Translations under genes and position numbers: made by a program
Assembly: GCF_025766255.1 (NCBI RefSeq)
Contig: NW_026516709.1
Location: 124,001-188,000, forward strand
Source of the DNA: Zychaea mexicana
Lineage: Eukaryota > Mucoromycota > Mucoromycetes > Mucorales > Lichtheimiaceae
Reading direction: 5' to 3'
Length of the DNA stretch: 64,000 bases
Shown: positions 32,591 to 62,344 of the stretch, one piece after another
How the letters are laid out: the number at the start of each line of letters is the position of its first letter
How positions within the stretch are numbered: the stretch's first letter is position 1
Notes under the pieces: model-generated
Database searches by the model: none
Told to the model about the DNA's origin: nothing
The model's input: the letters and a program-made list of their open reading frames with translations, nothing else

Positions 32591-38033
<5,443 letters not shown>

Positions 38034-45503: not shown

Positions 45504-47223
45504 TTATTGGTAGTGTCCGTAGGGGCTGTTGGGATGGTTTTGAAGTTGCTGTTGACGCTGGTGGTGTTGGATATGATCGTCAGCATAATCGATATCATCG
45601 GAGAATGGGTCTCGTTGTTGTTGTTGTTGCTGTTGGTGTGCCATATCGCTCATTTCAATTTTATTTTCTTGTTGTCTGTGGTGCTCAGCAGTGTTGTCCG
45701 CCGATGAGTTATTCTTTTCATCGTCCACCATCGGCGCGCCAAGACCTTCACCCTATACAAGATTTTTTAAAGTTAGTATATTAGCATGTTTATACTTGGA
45801 GAAGTGTAGATCCAATCCCTCCCCACCCCACTCCTTTTTTTTTCTTCTTCTTCGACTCTTTCCACATAGGCACTACGACACATATACACATCTGCCCACT
45901 CCATCTCTGTCTCTACCCCCGGGGGGGGGGGAGAACCCCCAAAGTATAAAATTTAAGCGTGCAACTTACATTAGTGAACGTTCGAGTACCCCAAGCTGTA
46001 ACATGGAGCGTGAAAAGCGCATAAATTTTCATGATGGCAAAGTAATAGTTGAAGATCAGCCAACAAGGAAGCACCCAAATATCGAGAGGACGGTGGAAAA
46101 AGTGTGGGATGAGCTTGATGAAACGAGTGACCAAGAGCCAGACAATGTAGGACACGGCAACATTCCATCCAGGCAAAGGAGGATTAGTGGGACCGGCATT
46201 CTTTTCTTGCAACGAGGTAAAGACGCCGACGAGAATAGGCCCGGCCAACAAAGTCAAGGGATTGAAGATCTTGTCGACCATGGTGAAAGCCACATAGGGG
46301 TGTCTACGCCAAATATAACGCTCCGTGAAAAGCGAGCGGAAATCAGAGCGCCATGTATTACGGGTCCATCGGAGCACTTGCTTCAAGAATCGCCAATTGT
46401 TCTTGAACGTCGAGTAGAGTTCTGCCTCTGTACACACTTGAGCATACGTGTTCCAGCCATGCGAGCACATCCATCGAGTCAAGAACTTGTCGTCGCCAGA
46501 GTTCAATGGGTACTTGTTGAGCCACAGATCATTGGTGAAGCAGTACTGGAAAGCCGGGTCTTTCAAGATCAGCGTGCGATAGGCTGCGGTACGGCCAGAC
46601 AAGCAGCAGATGCCGCCATCGATATGCGTGGATGCAGCAATTTCGATATTGCGCGAAGTCAATCGAAATCCAGCCAGGATTTCCCAGAGCGTCTGGTGTC
46701 CGTTGGGATCGACCGCATGGACAGTCTGTGAAGTGCCCACCCCGCCCATCTTGAGATCTTCAAAACATGCCAGGATATATTCCAGCATCGTTGGTTTCCA
46801 GATGGCATCGTCGTCAGCAAAGACAAGAATCTCGGTTGTGGTGGCATTCACACCCGCAGTCATCTGCAGGCGCTTATTGGCCTTGGGTACAGTAAGCACC
46901 CTAATTCTGGTAGGGTCGACTTCGTTTGCAAGCTCCTGCAACGGCTCTCTCATTTGTGTCTCGGTGATAATGACGATTTCTTTCGGGTTGCAGGCTAGCC
47001 AGCTTCGTGCGGCAATCTTGAACTCTTCGCCGGCATCGATGGTGGGTACAATGATAGTGACATCATGTTCAGGGCGGTATGTTGGGTTGGCCTTGGGTCG
47101 TCGAGGCTTGTATGTGAGCCACGCAATGACGCGGATGGCATACCACAGGTAACGATAGAAACCAATGATGCCTAGCGGCAGGAAAAATGGAAGCAAGCCC
47201 AAGTCGTCTGTGAGATACAACAT
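45504..47223 (-). CDS. Family 2 glycosyltransferase, processive polysaccharide synthase type (Cps1/hyaluronan-synthase-like)
   Basis: Two exons (45970-47223 and 45504-45752) give 500 aa. A membrane segment lies near residues 8-35, then a GT-A domain: DVTIIVPTIDAGEEF, the metal-binding FADDDA, SGDDKFLTRW and the QxxRW-type motif QVLRWTRNTW. Several hydrophobic segments follow (FNPLTLLAGPILVGVF, NVAVSYIVWLLVTRF, CWLIFNYYFAIMKIYALF), the architecture of membrane polysaccharide synthases. The second exon encodes a polar tail with a Q-run and many His/Gln, probably cytosolic and disordered. The start at 47223 precedes the first membrane segment; an upstream Met at 47382 would only add Ser/Pro-rich sequence. 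The polymer made is unknown. Confidence 0.88.
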
Positions 47224-47486
47224 GACTGCCTCTTGTTTTTTATTATTATCTTCGTAAACGAAGTCTGAAGAAGAAGAAGAAGAAAGAGAGAAAACGGACG
47301 AGGAAGTGGAAGTGGAAGGAAAGGAGGAGTAAAGTGAAGAAGAAGAAGGGCAAAAAAAAAAAAGTGGTGTTGGTGGGTACACAAGGAAAAAGGTTTTTGT
47401 GTTTTAAAAATACTTTTCTGGTAAAAATAACCCCAAAGGGGCACTGCCATCCCGCCCCTCATCGATTGTACCCTTATTTAGTCATT

Positions 47487-54800: not shown

Positions 54801-55524
54801 TTACGTCGCCATTTCTGTGGCTGCTTAAAAATGAGAATACAGTCGTAAGCGGAGGAGATGAGATGACTCGGTTGTTGCGCGCTTGATACAATTGACAGAT
54901 GAAGAATCATATATTCGTAAGCAAAATCACGCGTATAATAATATTATTGCATCGTTTACTCATACATTCTTCAATACATTGTGCCACGCCAACTCTTACC
55001 AGCAAAAGTAAGCTGACTGATGCAATTGGCAATCTGCATTGTATATGTTTATAGCATGATGTGCCATATAAATTATTCATGGAGGTTATGCGACAGAGAT
55101 AATGCGAGGATGATAACTAAAATGATGAAAGGGTCATTTTTCGCCTGTAAGCACGAGGGAGAAGTAACGCAAGCTCAAACGCTACTGACAAGGTGAAATC
55201 CGTTTACGAAAGACGAATGGTCAAGAGAAAAGTGGTACTTTTTTAGACCGGAGAATAGCGGGAAAAAAGGCATCCTACTTGCGTTATAAAATATCGTATA
55301 AGCCTTTTTAAACCAAGCTTTGACAACGCGAATCCACAGCAGTCGGTCAAGCTTGAAGTCAAGCGTGTCTCACTTGCTGCCGTTGATGGCCATTTGTTTC
55401 AAACGGATCTTGCATCACAGAAAAGAAAAACACAGACGCAGCCTCGTTTCTTTCTTTTAAGAACCGTCGACACTATCTTAAAGGCACTACCACGCCACGC
55501 AAAAAGGCTCACTCGGGATATTGA
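48867..55524. other. Gene-poor, repeat-rich island
   Basis: 6.7 kb in which I recognise no intact gene. Several stretches look like decayed coding sequence: about 50760-50960 plus (an acidic DEDTNCDAKDDDDNVNLEEF patch ended by stops), 51014-51298 plus, and 51597-51929 plus. None carries a motif I can name. The composition differs from the gene-rich half of the window, with fewer long coding frames and few pyrimidine tracts. Old mobile elements are the likeliest source, but this is not shown. Confidence 0.45.
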
Positions 55525-55811
55525 TACCTGCAGCCATCCTGGTTACAGATTTGAACCTGAACCAGATCCACGGCTTGTTCTTGCACAATTCTCTCCCTCA
55601 ACCTCGAGTTAGTGATTTATCCTGGTCCCCAACACCCATCTCTCTCTCTACTCTCTACCTGTTGTCTCTAGTAAAGCCTATGTATATTTTATTTATTTTT
55701 TCTTCTCTTTGTAATATTTAAGCATCACTTACCATCGCTTCATCGCTTTCCACAACCAGTTTTTCTTCCCCTGAGGGGTTTCCCGCATGTCTCTCCCCCT
55801 TATATCAGCTA

Positions 55812-55950
55812 CAGTGGTTCCCCGTTTAAGTTCAGCCTCAACGGGGTCTATAAAGTGCTGAAACTACTGTGGGTGTCACATACTATAAGGGGGTATAGAA
55901 ATAACTGAGGGTTTATCTTGTTGAGTGTGAAATTAGACGGGGAACCACTG
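55812..55950. mobile_element. MITE with Tc1/mariner-like ends, copy A
   Basis: 139 bp bounded by inverted repeats CAGTGGTTCCCCGT...ACGGGGAACCACTG and flanked on both sides by TA, the target duplication typical of Tc1/mariner/pogo elements. It encodes nothing. The same element sits at the matching place in copy B, so it was there before the duplication. Confidence 0.75.
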
Positions 55951-56550
55951 TATATATCATATTTCCTTAGATTTATAATTGCTGGCAAATTGCCTATCAT
56001 AAAGGATGTTGCCACTTTGCCATCTTCACCTAAATGCTGTTTGAACTGCAAAAGACGGAGTCTGGCTGTAGGTGAACTGAGTATATGTGGCGATGATGCG
56101 ATCATCGAAACACAGCCCATATCTGCATATGCACAGCTATATACTTTGAAGAGAAAACACGGTACGTGTGCTGCATATATGCACTCGTGCATAATGCTCT
56201 TCATTTCCACATATACGACGCAGAATACAGAGAAGGTATGAGATTTCTTCTCCAAGAAATACATTAGCTGTCAGCACATTTAGAATAATAGTATTTATAT
56301 TCAACATTTGTGTAATGGGCTGTCAAGTTAATAGGTAGTATGTAGTGTTACTATTTCGTCAACTTTTTCTATATTGATATATAGCCAGATGTGCTCAATT
56401 GATAATCCTTGTGTGGCGTAACAAGGTGGGCTAGGCTTGATTTAACGCATAGGGTTTTTATTTCTATATCATATGCAGCATAATCTACAGATGGCGTTAC
56501 AGTTCCTAGCCCCTTTACATTGAAGAGGTAGATTGGCAGTCAGTCTTTTA

Positions 56551-56710
56551 GTATAAAAGGTTCGCTTTTCTACAGAACTTGCTCTATATCAAATATTTTT
56601 GTGATCCTCACTCAATTGTAAGTCATCTTTTCTTTATTTCACTACTATGCACCTTCATGTTTATTCAACTAACCATTGACATGTACACGCTTATAGTAAA
56701 CAAGACGAAC
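56551..56710 (+). promoter_or_regulatory. TATA box and 5'UTR intron of secreted peptide gene A
   Basis: A TATA box (GTATAAAAGG) at 56551-56560 is followed by a leader with a 79-bp intron, donor GTAAGT at 56618 and acceptor TTATAG ending at 56696. The spliced leader runs into the ATG at 56711. The arrangement is conserved in copy B. Confidence 0.65.
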
Positions 56711-56905
56711 ATGGTTCAAGTTTTCTCTCTCCAACGCCTTTCTCTTTCCGTGGTTTTGGCCTCGATGCTGGCTTCCGTGCTGGTTTCTGCTGATGATAGT
56801 GGCACTTGTATCGCTACTGGGGATCCTTGTATTCCTGGTGGTCCAATTTCTTGCTGCTCCGGCACATGCGAATTGAATACGTTGGGAGTTTCTCTATGCC
56901 CGTAA
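56711..56905 (+). CDS. Small secreted six-cysteine protein, knottin-like, copy A
   Basis: 64 aa. Residues 1-27 form a clear signal peptide with a hydrophobic core (LSVVLASMLASVLVS) and likely cleavage after VSA. The predicted mature part is 37 residues with six cysteines spaced C-x6-C-x7-CC-x3-C-x9-C, the order (C, C, CC, C, C) seen in inhibitor-cystine-knot peptides. No other known domain is present. The start at 56711 is preferred over an upstream in-frame Met at 56579, because the upstream frame crosses a 5'UTR intron and would bury the signal peptide. A poly(A) signal AATAAA lies at 56975. Function is unknown: antimicrobial, effector or signalling roles are all possible. The ICK fold is inferred from spacing only. 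Confidence 0.82.
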   Translation: MVQVFSLQRLSLSVVLASMLASVLVSADDSGTCIATGDPCIPGGPISCCSGTCELNTLGVSLCP

Positions 56906-57218
56906 TCGAAATCATGAGTGAAATGCAAAGATGAATGTTTTGCGCGCTTAAACTTTCTTGCGCACATTTTCACGAATAAAGTGGTTTTAAAGTGTCCAAA
57001 ATCAGCTTACATAAATCATTATGGTGCAAGACAGCTACAACCAGCCAAATTTAGGGCCTACTTTTAAAAAGTATCTAGTCACCTAAAGTTGACGATATTA
57101 AATTTTTATTGCGTTAAAAACGTTATTTCGATGGAGGAGAATAATTTTAACGCAGCCGATTTTTGTTTAAAGCAACACAGCCCAAGAAGAAGGACTTCAA
57201 AGTCGGGATATGCTTATA

Positions 57219-58397
57219 AGTGCAGCCCAGATTTGGCCGGCCGGCAATATTACCTATAGCCAATAAAATCACATATAACAGCCAAAGTGACTGTTTATAT
57301 ATGGGCAAACTATGATCCGGTATAGACTGATGTCTTTCTCTTCTGTGTTTTAGGATCTAATAAGAGACACGATTGTGCACATCGTGCTAAGCGAGAGGTG
57401 TAGAAACGATGCAATTACTCATTCAAAAGCTTGCAAGTGACTGTACCAAAAGTTCTTGATGAAATCATATTGAATATAATATGTAATTTTGAGCGAAAGG
57501 CTTGGTGCTACATCGACGCATATTACCAAGGGTACCAAGGCCGTGAGGCTCTGCAAATGGTAAAAAAAGTACAAGTCTCAGCATAGGGTCGCAGTAAATG
57601 ATTAGTATTTTTCGATGTTTAAAATAAAAAAATTGGGCCGTTTTTTTGGGAAAAGTACGGTTATAGCTGTCTTGCACCATACTTGACATTTTCTCTTTGA
57701 ACATGTTAGCAATGAAGAGTATAGAACAACAGGTTTTGTCATTCAAACAGACACAAAGAGATTTCTCTTCAAAAAACTACATAGGGCAAACGCAGGCTCG
57801 CGACAATTTTCGCAGCGCCTGATATTTAGGAAGAACGTTTCTTTTCTTCAAGATGTGACAGTTAGCCGCTATTACTATATATACTCATCAATATCACTTA
57901 TCGAATAAACGTTGTTCCCTTTCATTTAAACAATCCCTTTCACACAAGAGTAGTACATAAGATACCTAAAAAATAGAGATGCACGTACTTATCGGTACTG
58001 TGATTTAGTTTCTGGCATTAGGATTTTGCTATCATAATTTAGTAAATTCGGTTGGTGTTGCACCGAATAACTTGAAAAAGGGTTTCTGATCTGCATAGAG
58101 CGAATTCGTGGGAAATAAAGGTGACGAAAATCGAAAACTCCTTTCCTCTGACTCAATTTGCTTCATACTGGAAGAAGCAGAGGTCTTGGCTCCGAAACCA
58201 CCGTGCCTTATTTTTCTAAAACTATTTAAGCAATTGAGTACTTCTGATTGCTGGTTCTTCCAGCTTACGTAACTGATAAGTACTACACGCTAAGTTACAA
58301 CAGCAACAGCAACAACTCTTATATTACAAACCACGAGTCAGGAAAAAGGGATGGTAAGAGAACATTGACGTCTTGATCTCTGGTGCTGGACCACTTG
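57219..58397. other. Unique spacer between duplication copy A and the TIR element
   Basis: 1.2 kb, AT-rich, with no gene recognised. A 93-codon minus-strand frame at 57465-57746 has no recognisable features. Confidence 0.5.
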
Positions 58398-58452
58398 CAC
58401 TGCAGGAAAAAAAAACCTTAATATACCTCAAAAAACCTGAATAAACCTGAAT
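58398..58452 (+). repeat. Left terminal inverted repeat
   Basis: Starts CACTGCAGG, then an A-run, CCTTAATATACCT and two AACCTGAA motifs. It matches the reverse complement of the right end. Confidence 0.7.
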
Positions 58453-58583
58453 TTAGTTCAACCAGGACCACCGTTGTTGTACCAAATGAAACTTCCGACA
58501 CACCTGACCACATTTTTTTTTTCATCTCATCAATATGTCAACACCTTCTCTATCACGGAAAAATAATTTTATGCCGCCTGCGG

Positions 58584-58784
58584 TTGACCATTAACACCAA
58601 CAGCTGGCAGGGTAACAATCGCGTTCAGCAGTCCAGGCTTATACGTATTGGTGAAGTTATGGTGTACTTTCAGCATTATGATGTAGACGCTGCCAGATTA
58701 TTTGCCTTGGTGAAAGTATATGACGCTGAAAAGTCTAATGACAGTGGCACGTGGCTGTATCGCACGATGGAGTTGTTAATGTAA
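58584..58784 (+). CDS. Short ORF inside the TIR element, possible gene remnant
   Basis: 66 codons with protein-like composition (IGEVMVYFQHYDVDAARLFA, ALVKVYDAEKSNDSGTWLY). The next frame (58840-59067) may continue it. It could be the C-terminal end of a transposon protein whose 5' part is lost, but I cannot name the family. Confidence 0.3.
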   Translation: MTINTNSWQGNNRVQQSRLIRIGEVMVYFQHYDVDAARLFALVKVYDAEKSNDSGTWLYRTMELLM

Positions 58785-59063
58785 AGCATATCAAACAGCT
58801 GGTGTGCAGTATTGAAAGTACATCGAAGCGTCACTACGTTTGCAGGTCACAAACGAGACAACGAACTTCTTGGTGAACTGCGGTATCTATGGTGATTTCC
58901 ATTTTAGGCAGTATCAAAACAAAGTTGATCCTTTTCTCCTCATTTGTTTGCCCTTGCCTCTCCTTGTATGCTTCATCTTGCCGTTTGAAAAAAAAAAATT
59001 TTCCTTTTATTATTCCTTCTCCTCTTTCGTCAATAATAAAACATCACACAGAAACAACTTAAC

Positions 59064-59880
59064 ATGAATCCTCAAATCCCAGCAATTCTTAACGCTATCA
59101 AAAACAATAAAGATTCAATGCTTGCACTTGCACGGTCGGTCGGCTCCTTGGCAAGGGAAGTTGATGTCACAGTAAGGCGTTGGATGATCTTTCCACATCA
59201 GTAACTCTTATAGTTGGGGATGTACAGTGCTGTCCTTTCATGTCCATCTGTAGAATCTTCCAGCTCCGTATCAAGAGCGTTTTCTTCTGGGCTGTTTGAC
59301 GGCATACTCACAGACGAAGTTTGTAATGGAGGAGCTGACCAGTCTGTGCCACGACGTTGTCAGGGAGCACCAATTGGATATCACGCGCAGCGACGAAGTC
59401 AATATCAGGGACAACATATGGGGACGATCTGGGATAATGGTCGATGGTATTCTCAGCAAACCTGATATTGATTTGCTTAGAACGAGCTGGTCAGCGATAC
59501 CAGAGACGACCTTGAAGGCGCAACAAGATTTATAGAGCGCATGCTAAAGATCTGCACCCTTGGCTGCGTGCGTGAACAGTTGGGCTACAAACAAAATCCT
59601 GCAACTTCGGGGGATCGCGCAATAACTTACAGCGGCTTCAACAACCAAAAATCAGTAAGTACATACTAGGAGTATTAGCGTTTCCGGTATATATGTATAT
59701 AATGCTTACCTTCAAAATATTACAGTTTTTAAACGCTATCAGACATTATCAAGCGCTCCACAAGAGGAAACATGTGTTTTTTCAGAATAAAGGTATATAT
59801 ACTCTACCAATGCTGATGTATTTGACGTACTTCATAGCACACACACTGTTTGTACTCAACCAGCGTTCGTCAACACCATG
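59064..59880 (+). pseudogene. Decayed multi-exon gene inside the TIR element
   Basis: Begins with a plausible start (MNPQIPAILNAIKNNKDS) and a GTAAGG donor at about 59172. A protein-like stretch follows an acceptor near 59315 (FVMEELTSLCHDVVREHQLD). The frame then breaks near 59528, where a one-base shift is needed to continue into the next coding-like stretch. That ends at a GTAAGT donor near 59656, with a TTACAG acceptor near 59726. Intron signals survive, but the reading frame does not hold. No domain is recognised. Confidence 0.35.
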
Positions 59881-60515
59881 AGGTTGCGTTGCCGTCGACA
59901 TCAAACACAGACGACTGTTCAAGGCTCCTAGTGTAATAGTCGGAAGACGAAGACGCGTCGCAACTGCCCAGTGTGTTGCTCTCCTCTTTAAGCCAAGGTA
60001 TACAGTAGATCAAAAATCCATATTGCATGGCATAGAATGAGCATCCATGATATACCAACCTAATTAAAAGAGAGACTACATCACGCAAACGCGCCCGTTC
60101 ATGCGATGGATCTGCTAATGACTTCACTGACAGCACCAGTGTTGCTCGCGTCGGTGCTCGTAATGCTCGTGGTGTTCGCTGTTGCGGTCGTGTTGGCAAC
60201 TAAATAGAATTGAACACTTATTTGCTTGTGTACTACACAATGCAAAAATGATTTGTCAAAGATTTAATATAGAAAGCAAAATTTAATAATAAACATATTG
60301 TCATCCAATCGAAATCAGTTTTTTAGCATATATAATATGAAAGAGGATCAATGAGGAAATGTGAATAGCTGATGAAATATCCAATGATGCTCCCAAACGG
60401 ATCAGCTATACGTACAACGACCAATAAGACACGATGTATGTACCCAATCATAAACACAGTTGAACGCATTCCACACTTCAGCCGACCAATAAAACGAATC
60501 AGAGAAACCAGATAT

Positions 60516-60661
60516 TATTAAGGTATATTCGAGTTTTCTCAGGTTTTTTCAGGTTTAAAAAAAACCTGAATATACCTTAATTTGCCCGTTTCAGGTTTTT
60601 TCAGGTTTTAGGTTTTTTTAGGTTTTTTAAGGTATATTAAGGTTTTTTCTTTCCTATAGTG
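60516..60661 (-). repeat. Right terminal inverted repeat and subterminal repeats
   Basis: Dense TTCAGGTT, AGGTTTTTT and AAGGTATATT motifs, including an internal palindrome (AAGGTATATTC near 60520 against GAATATACCTT near 60571). It ends TTTCCTATAGTG at 60661. Confidence 0.7.
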
Positions 60662-60947
60662 TACCTGCAGCCATCCTGGTTACAGATTTGAACCTGAACC
60701 AGATCCACGGCTTGTTCTTGCACAATTCTCTCCCTCAACCTCGAGTTAGTGATTTATCCTGGTCCCCAACACCCATCTCTCTCTCTACTCTCTACCTGTT
60801 GTCTCTGGTAAAGCCTATGTATATTTTATTTATTTTTCTTCTCTTTGTAATATTTAAGCATCACTTACCATCGCTTCATCGCTTTCCACAACCAGTTTTT
60901 CTTCCCCTGAGGGGTTTCCCGCATGTCTCTCCCCCTTATATCAGCTA

Positions 60948-61097
60948 CAGTGGTTCCCTGTTTAAGTTCAGCCTCAACGGGGATCTATAAAGTGCTGAAA
61001 CTACTGAGGGTGCTACATACTATAAGGGGGTATAGAAAAAAATTGAGATAACTGAGGGTTTATCTTGTTGAGTGTGAAATTAGACGGGGAACCACTG
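60948..61097. mobile_element. MITE with Tc1/mariner-like ends, copy B
   Basis: 150 bp. It has CAGTGGTTCCC at the left, the inverted GGGGAACCACTG at the right, and TA on both sides. It is slightly longer than copy A because of small insertions. Confidence 0.72.
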
Positions 61098-61680
61098 TAT
61101 ATATTCATATTTCCTTAAATTTATAATTGCTGACAAATTGCCTATCATAAAGGATGTTGCCACTTTGCCATCTTCACCTAAATGCTGTTTGAACTGCAAA
61201 AGACGGAGTCTGGCTGTAGGTGAACTGAGTATATGTGGCGATGATGCGATCATCGAAACACAGCCCATATCTGCATATGCACAGCTATATACTTTGAGGA
61301 GAAAACACGGTACGTGTGCTGCATAGATGCACTCGTGCATAATGCTTTTCGTTTCCACATATACGACGCAGAATACAGAGAAGGCATTAGACTTCTTTTC
61401 CAAAAATTTATTAGCTGTCAGCACATTTATTTATATTCAAAATTGGGTAATGAGCTGTCAAGCTAATAGGTAGTATGTAGTGTTACTATTTCGTCAACTT
61501 TTTCTATATTGATATATAGCCAGATGTGTTCAATTGATAATCCTTGTGTGGCGTAGCAAGGTGGGCTAGGCTTGATTTAACGCATAAGGTTTTTATTTCT
61601 ATATCATATGCAGCATAATCTACAGATGGCGTTACAGTTCCTAGCCCCTTTACATTGAAGAGGTAGATTGACAGTCAGTC

Positions 61681-61845
61681 TTTTAGTATAAAAGGTTCGC
61701 TTTTCTACAGAACTTGCTCTATATCAAATATTTTTGTGATCCTCACTCAATTGTAAGTCATCTTTTCTTTATTTCACTACTATGCACCTTCATGTTTATT
61801 CAACTAACCATTGACATGTACACGCTTATAGTAAACAAGACGAAC
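61681..61845 (+). promoter_or_regulatory. TATA box and 5'UTR intron of secreted peptide gene B
   Basis: TATA box GTATAAAAGG at 61686, donor GTAAGT at 61753, acceptor TTATAG ending at 61831. These match copy A in sequence and spacing. Confidence 0.65.
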
Positions 61846-62031
61846 ATGGTTCAAGTTTTCTCTCTCCAACGCCTTTCTCTTTCCGTGGTTTTGGCCTCGA
61901 TGCTGGCTTCCGTGCTGGTTTCTGCTGATGATATTGGCACTTGCTATGCTTCTGGTGATTATTGTATGAGTCCAATTGCTTGCTGCTCCGGCGAATGCGA
62001 ATGGACTTCGTTGGGACCTCAATGCACGTAA
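61846..62031 (+). CDS. Small secreted six-cysteine protein, knottin-like, copy B
   Basis: 61 aa. The 27-residue signal peptide is identical to copy A, also at DNA level. The mature part is 34 residues with spacing C-x6-C-x5-CC-x3-C-x8-C. All six cysteines and a few Gly/Ser are kept while most residues between them differ from copy A, including a two-residue shorter second loop. A poly(A) signal AATAAA lies at 62101. The intact frame, signal peptide and cysteines, with change focused in the loops, point to a functional diverging secreted peptide. Target and role are unknown. Confidence 0.82.
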   Translation: MVQVFSLQRLSLSVVLASMLASVLVSADDIGTCYASGDYCMSPIACCSGECEWTSLGPQCT

Positions 62032-62344
62032 TCGGAATCATGAGTGAAATGCAAAGATGAATGTTTTGCGCGCTTAAACTTTCTTGCGCACATTTTCACG
62101 AATAAAGTGGTTTTAAAGTGTCCAAAATCAGCTTACATAAGTCATTATGGTGCAAGACAGCTATAACCAGCCAAATTTAGGGCCTACTTTTAAAAAGTAT
62201 CTAGTCACCTAAAGTTGACGATATTAAATTTTTATTACGCTAAAAACGTTATTTCGATAGAGGAGAATAATTTTAACGCAGCCGATTTTTGTTTAAAGCA
62301 ACACAGCCCAAGAAGAAGGACTTCAAAGTCGGGATATGCTTATA

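Follow-up and report, generated by a model that had tools for sequence, protein, structure and literature searches.

Within a 64,000-nucleotide stretch of the genome of the mucoralean fungus Zychaea mexicana (positions 124,001 to 188,000 of contig NW_026516709.1, hereafter the window), two genes, here called A and B, encode small six-cysteine precursors whose mature region is under positive selection. The original prediction had described a duplicated pair of secreted, knottin-like peptides with a frozen signal and a fast-changing mature part. That observation is confirmed and extends beyond the window: the duplication is real, but the pair is just part of a wider family found by searching the genome. 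We favor a reading in which A and B belong to a family of secreted inhibitor cystine knot (ICK) peptides that is specific to this lineage and diversifies against a changing external target, and we give this a probability of roughly 0.6.

Both genes lie on the forward strand as single exons, identified as open reading frames and by comparison within the family. Gene A (56711..56905) encodes 64 amino acids and gene B (61846..62031) 61, with 62031 being the exact end of the gene B stop codon. Their signal DNA is identical (81/81 bases) and their surroundings nearly so, with differences at 15 of 487 aligned positions in the 500 bases upstream, plus 26 gap columns, and at 2 of the 110 bases after the stop codon. 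About 23 of 102 aligned bases differ in the mature part, or core (3.5 synonymous and 19.5 nonsynonymous), together with three gap codons, and all six cysteines are retained in both genes.

A family of small six-cysteine precursors

We searched the genome (50.34 Mb in 305 contigs, with the window on a contig of 316 kb) using protein A, its 5' region and the signal DNA as queries. The family has six intact copies, A-F, along with three that look decayed (G-I) and a single distant relative, J, that is also intact; these counts are lower bounds. The intact copies outside the window lie at C304:26040 (C, forward strand), C1:362487 (D, forward), C1:547409 (E, reverse) and C46:125153 (F, reverse). 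In copy G (C212:287.8k, reverse) the first ATG is out of frame with a mature-like stretch holding five cysteines, copy H (C212:194.8k, forward) lacks a visible mature part, and copy I (C290:161.1k, forward) is broken early. The relative J (C231:327260-327463) was found with F as the query, at 37% identity and an E-value of 9e-5. When J was used as the query, genomic matches were limited to J itself and F; the mature part of D matched only itself, and a composed probe recovered the same six copies and no others. The decayed copies and the distant intact relative fit a process of birth and death of genes.

Copies A-F share a common anatomy. Their precursors would be 61-71 amino acids long, with mature parts of 34-44, and all seven intact proteins (A-F and J) carry a signal-like leader ending in VSA. 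The putative signal peptide of gene A covers 27 residues (56711..56791), as delimited by conservation among the six copies and a predicted cleavage site. The mature peptides of A (37 residues, 56792..56902) and B (34 residues, 61927..62028) follow with no intron between signal and mature part. A TATAAAA box stands 159 bases before the ATG in A (56552..56558), at the same place in B (61687..61693) and C, and 161-165 bases before it in D-F. An intron in the 5' untranslated region (UTR), running from GTAAGT through CTAAC to TTATAG in gene A, is predicted from sequence only at 56618..56696 in A and 61753..61831 in B. In all six intact copies the GTAAGT donor lies 92-96 bases before the ATG and the last base of the acceptor 15 before it; a branch site is present in five (CTAAC in A-D, TTAAC in F), the pattern search having found none in E. 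AATAAA is likewise present downstream in all six (56975..56980 in A, 62101..62106 in B), that of D sitting within a repeat. The reading frames of A-F are not chance, as every one of the six copies repeats the same TATA box, donor, acceptor and AATAAA. By eye, a TATA box and perhaps a 5'UTR intron can be made out in J as well.

The cysteine pattern C-x6/7-C-x5-10-CC-x3/4-C-x8-10-C is present in all seven intact proteins (C-x6-C-x7-CC-x3-C-x9-C in A and C-x6-C-x5-CC-x3-C-x8-C in B), and its spacing is compatible with a knot, the second loop of J being long at 10 residues. Among the 32 gapless columns of the A-F cores, cysteines make up six of the seven that are invariant (chance 8e-6), and 34 of the 36 cysteine codons match the majority codon of their site. 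The loop between Cys5 and Cys6 is the most variable, with 4.2 distinct residues per column vs 2.2-3.1 elsewhere. A structure model of the mature part of B (predicted local distance difference test, pLDDT, 80.1; predicted template modeling score, pTM, 0.43) has strands at residues 24-27 and 30-33. It matches cystine-knot peptides, spider-type ones included, along 28-32 of its 34 residues (1.3-2.7 Å), with weak scores and for B only, and nearly all of its weak fold matches are cystine knots, colipase being the off-fold row among 15. Weak sequence matches to peptides that we take to be cystine knots fill three of the four rows of one search (AAHIV is the off-fold row) and at least eight of the 13 of another, where four sialic acid acetylesterase chains and one unnamed chain are off-fold. 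The best E-value for the family profile is 0.0016 (Xt3a). In Pfam, all seven intact proteins fall below the curated cut-off, the best being PF10530 Toxin_35 at 17.2 of 26.8 bits (E) and PF11703 at 16.9 of 23.2 (B). The knottin fold initially proposed is therefore likely for the mature peptides, given their cysteine spacing, the model of B and fold matches that are mostly cystine knots, but with scores this weak it stops short of proof.

If the favored reading holds, signal peptidase would cut about 27 residues off each precursor in the secretory pathway, three disulfides (I-IV, II-V and III-VI) would form the knot, and a peptide of 34-44 amino acids, with a predicted mass of about 3.6-4.8 kDa less 6 H, would be released. 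The cysteines would hold the scaffold and the loops, chiefly Cys5-Cys6, would carry specificity, being replaced again and again by positive selection while genes duplicate and die. The likeliest role of the peptides would be to block, by binding it, a protein from an organism the fungus encounters (prey, grazer, competitor or host), a target that is itself changing. We also considered a cationic antimicrobial peptide and rejected it. The isoelectric points (pI) of five of the seven mature peptides are 4.05 (A, B, C and J) or 4.28 (E), with F at 5.52 and D at 7.80, and the spread of 4.05-7.80 disfavors a uniform cationic antimicrobial role.

Alternatively, the peptides may be secreted enzyme inhibitors, for instance of proteases, or self-directed signals rather than toxins, with loops that track proteases or recognition partners. 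Knottins do include protease inhibitors, as the available text of PMC4503680 describes, but no inhibitor family was matched in Pfam by A-F or J. The mature peptides of A and B are acidic and without lysine or arginine, which would suit enzyme or receptor binding over membrane disruption; a conserved reactive-site residue could not be made out in the six cores. We consider this alternative unlikely, though worth keeping in mind.

Positive selection and the divergence of core and flanks

The mature region of the family is under positive selection. With a codon model fitted to the flank tree and branch lengths left free, the ratio of nonsynonymous to synonymous rates (dN/dS, or omega) of the A-F core was 2.51 (log-likelihood, lnL, -679.08 vs -684.29 at omega 1). 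Without D, the copy whose alignment is the least certain among A-F, it was 3.51 (-521.81 vs -527.82). A repeat by parametric bootstrap gave omega 2.37 and twice the lnL difference (2dlnL) of 9.2, which none of 200 neutral simulations reached with omega above 1; their largest omega was 2.00, and their largest 2dlnL, 10.34, exceeded the observed value but with omega below 1. In pairwise comparisons of the mature part, dN/dS was above 1 in 10 of 15 pairs (1.41-3.56) and 0.62-1.00 in the five pairs that include D. With the cysteines invariant, these values bear out the strong selection on loop residues claimed by the original prediction.

The signal part behaves differently, with an omega of 0.08-0.23 vs about 2.4-3.5 for the mature part. 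Across A-F its 81 bases hold three changes, two synonymous and one nonsynonymous, and the lower estimate comes from flank branch lengths, the higher from scaled ones. The signal thus proved conserved as predicted, but mainly through ordinary purifying selection and recent duplication. A special mechanism freezing it at the DNA level was rejected, since its rate is just marginally below that of the flanks (scale 0.33, 2dlnL 3.5).

The same values bear on whether the family is functional at all. Mobile elements are found nearby (elements resembling miniature inverted-repeat transposable elements, MITEs, upstream of A-E, and repeats after the D coding region) and three copies look decayed, as might be expected if the frames were by-products of a spreading repeat whose core drifts neutrally. 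Six open frames that keep every cysteine, the low signal omega and a core omega above 1 that neutral simulations did not reproduce already disfavor this, and we give it hardly any credence.

Selection does not account for everything, however. In 100-base windows, divergence peaks on the mature part, at +100 to +199: 18/91 for A-B, 21/100 for A-C, 18/100 for B-C, 42/94 for D-E, 30/100 for A-E and 33/88 for E-F. Other windows mostly stay at 14 or below, the window after the peak giving 9/86 in A-E and 21/94 in E-F. Between copies B and C, 5 of 489 upstream bases differ and 4 of 110 past the stop codon; taken over the full 1.7-kb unit, with core and gaps counted, identity is 95%, but in the core 15 of 34 aligned codons change amino acid. 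For D and E the counts are 10 of 496 upstream bases and, in the core, 24 of 39 codons. The branch lengths of the core are not in proportion to those of the flank (lnL -756.33 vs -679.08, 2dlnL 154.5, 8 more parameters). When a two-class codon model ties the core to the flank, one class must take an omega of 55 with all copies, or of 117 if D is dropped. Even so, the fit is poorer than with free branches, under which the corresponding class has omega 11-14; these two-class fits are rough, the scaled fit without D having ended 0.1 lnL below the fixed one. Relative to its flanks the core has diverged too far, and with such tied omegas required, steady positive selection is not enough. An extra process must be added, whether flank homogenization, bursts of selection or core-specific mutation or patching.

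One form of this process comes close to an even chance in our judgment and is compatible with the favored reading. Ectopic conversion may keep flanks and signal young while mismatched cores resist it, in which case the cores would be old paralogs shaped by positive selection of an ordinary kind (omega about 2.5-3.5). Inner branches and F roughly agree with the flanks, and it is the tips A-E that are far longer in the core. Among A, B and C, variable sites number 3 of 331 from -250 to +81 vs 44 of 1210 elsewhere (Fisher p 0.007, with limits set after inspection); A and E nonetheless differ by 7-11 per 100 just upstream. Two comparisons speak for opposite ages. In D and E, 3 of 15 unchanged codons differ against so few upstream bases, which argues for an old core. 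B and C show no synonymous difference in 18 unchanged codons (Met and Trp aside), as if core and flank were equally young. The duplicated units, moreover, extend 1.7 to about 4 kb, and no donor was identified. The original prediction had named gene conversion with unrelated sequence as a possible refutation of its claim. As a source of the core this was rejected, no donor having been found, whereas flank homogenization remains a live part of the explanation.

A second form is a locally raised mutation rate in the core, or its rebuilding in short patches by a dedicated diversity generator. The divergence peak coincides with the mature peptide at the resolution of 100-base windows, and two or three bases differ in 8 of 15 changed codons between B and C and in 19 of 24 between D and E. 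Against this, synonymous bases are mostly kept in unchanged codons (differing in 0/18 for B-C, 1/22 for A-C and 2/20 for A-B), and a test of the pairwise homoplasy index (PHI) type found no significant recombination inside the core (p 0.23). We find it very doubtful. Only slightly less doubtful is a bolder version in which an early-diverging fungus couples strong positive selection to a process confined to the core, be it local mutation, the exchange of patches or repeated conversion of the flanks. Such a conotoxin-like system of diversification would maintain a shifting repertoire of secreted knots against an animal, protist or microbial target, the single-exon mature part evolving tens of times faster than its 5' and 3' flanks.

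We also noted that A and E share one start of the mature part and B, C and F another, as in mosaic cores. We do not claim reassortment, given the PHI-type result and tests of topology. By the approximately unbiased (AU) test the flank tree is not rejected by the core data (0.277; share in resampling of estimated log-likelihoods, RELL, 0.0045). The best core tree is rejected by the flank data (0.039), and two other core trees within 0.1 lnL of the best are not (0.236 and 0.186).

Surroundings of the genes

Gene A lies in a duplicated unit of about 1.7 kb (55518..57218, forward strand) that is 95% identical to the unit holding gene B (60656..62344, forward strand), as found by pairwise blastn and a repeat search. 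Upstream of gene A, the repeat search found a MITE-like inverted-repeat element with 33-nt arms (55810..55952, without assigned strand), also present upstream of B (60946-61099), in C and partly upstream of D and E. It has at least 76 matching stretches in the genome, some of them halves of one element, with 40 of 51 candidates scored. Between the two genes, a 2.2-kb stretch at 58407-60651 has 45-nt inverted ends (89% complementary, AGGTTTTTT-type repeats), contains short open frames only and ends just before the start of B's duplicated unit; from these features it looks like a DNA transposon.

On contig C1, copies D and E lie 185 kb from each other in opposite orientation, and farther upstream they have a duplicated stretch in common (L030:2763-3830 and L031:6126-7229, the latter reversed) that differs at 40 of 1404 bases. 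It holds MutY-like exons, those of L030 matching the EndIII iron-sulfur motif and NUDIX_4. The DNA directly after the D coding region (L030:5209-5700) is repeated. Between mid-core and a point 480 bases past the coding end, D matches 28 other places in the genome, all of them with sequence that begins around the stop codon or later. Six fall within the first 160 bases, four of these (73-93% identity) beginning near the stop codon itself, and the other 22 lie farther on. The 3' end, or 3'UTR, of D thus seems to derive from a repeat of mobile elements.

Elsewhere in the window, a hyaluronan-synthase-like family 2 glycosyltransferase (45913-47403, reverse strand) is 95% identical to that of Circinella minor and 91% to that of Syncephalastrum racemosum, with lower identity to the others among the 120 of 505 matches listed. 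A long (GA)n-type stretch at 32703-33512 (reverse strand), with an Arg-Glu repeat in an open frame, is probably an intron or spacer microsatellite. Scans of the window for tRNAs and Rfam families gave 0 matches, and a bacterial-type promoter scan was set aside as not meaningful for such DNA.

Meaning and known systems

Knottin families whose signal peptides are conserved have already been described in fungi; what is new here is the mucoralean lineage and the paradox of core and flank. So far, work on diversifying knottins has dealt with venomous animals and with Dikarya that infect plants or animals. The present family suggests a molecular contest with an outside target and, if this is true, points to an interaction partner of mucoralean fungi. 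No relatives were found among 5.8 billion proteins (one search returned a single unscored candidate, the other five, none at an E-value of 1), although both searches need shared 5-residue words and such small genes are often unannotated, so relatives may exist. Short-gene families may be widely missed, because no relative appeared among predicted proteins. Nor did a literature search, which did not reach subscription papers, find, among the papers listed, such a family in Mucoromycota described in titles or the starts of abstracts.

Several fungal systems invite comparison. The rust proteins AvrP4 and MLP124266 (Melampsora) belong, in the part of PMC6889267 available, to a small secreted family with highly conserved signals and a C-terminal six-cysteine knot. 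The rust knottins differ from A-F in that their N-terminal half is charged and flexible and their cysteines, at 39, 44, 50, 55, 58 and 64, include no adjacent pair; they also come from a plant parasite. The "Fungi1" knottins of Histoplasma and other Onygenales, with Cladosporium Avr9, are presented in PMC4503680 as an expanded small secreted six-cysteine family, but an ascomycete one. No match to AvrP4 or Fungi1 was found in the two protein searches, and none is so named among the 13 weak sequence rows. Knottin-like effector families are reported in Venturia (PMC9632046, available portion) and single knottin-fold proteins are predicted in Emergomyces (PMC12705615, available portion). Closer in lineage is Licosin of Lichtheimia corymbifera, a cysteine-rich, toxin-like peptide; like A-F it is mucoralean, but what is accessible of PMC13199095 reports it as a defensin, a description that sets it apart. 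With animal and plant ICK peptides (omega-atracotoxin-HVI, 1axh; psalmotoxin, 4fz0; ALO3; bidentatide; agelenin), A-F share the cysteine pattern and, in the model, the fold, a likeness that is likely convergence.

The conotoxin precursors of cone snails offer a further parallel. They have a conserved signal, and many have a pro-region. The available text of PMC3823881 describes hypervariable loops, kept cysteines and site-specific cysteine codons, and explains the codon pattern as a by-product of cysteine conservation, an explanation that fits A-F too. A homologue of any kind, conotoxins included, was absent from the results of the two word-based protein searches. A-F are fungal and few, with no pro-region seen between signal and mature part, but like conotoxins they combine a conserved signal, a mature dN/dS above 1, kept cysteines and site-specific cysteine codons. 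In this pattern A-F work like a conotoxin-type diversifying family, probably without being members of it. Such a compact mucoralean example would make the old conotoxin puzzle of a core outpacing its surrounding DNA testable in a fungus.

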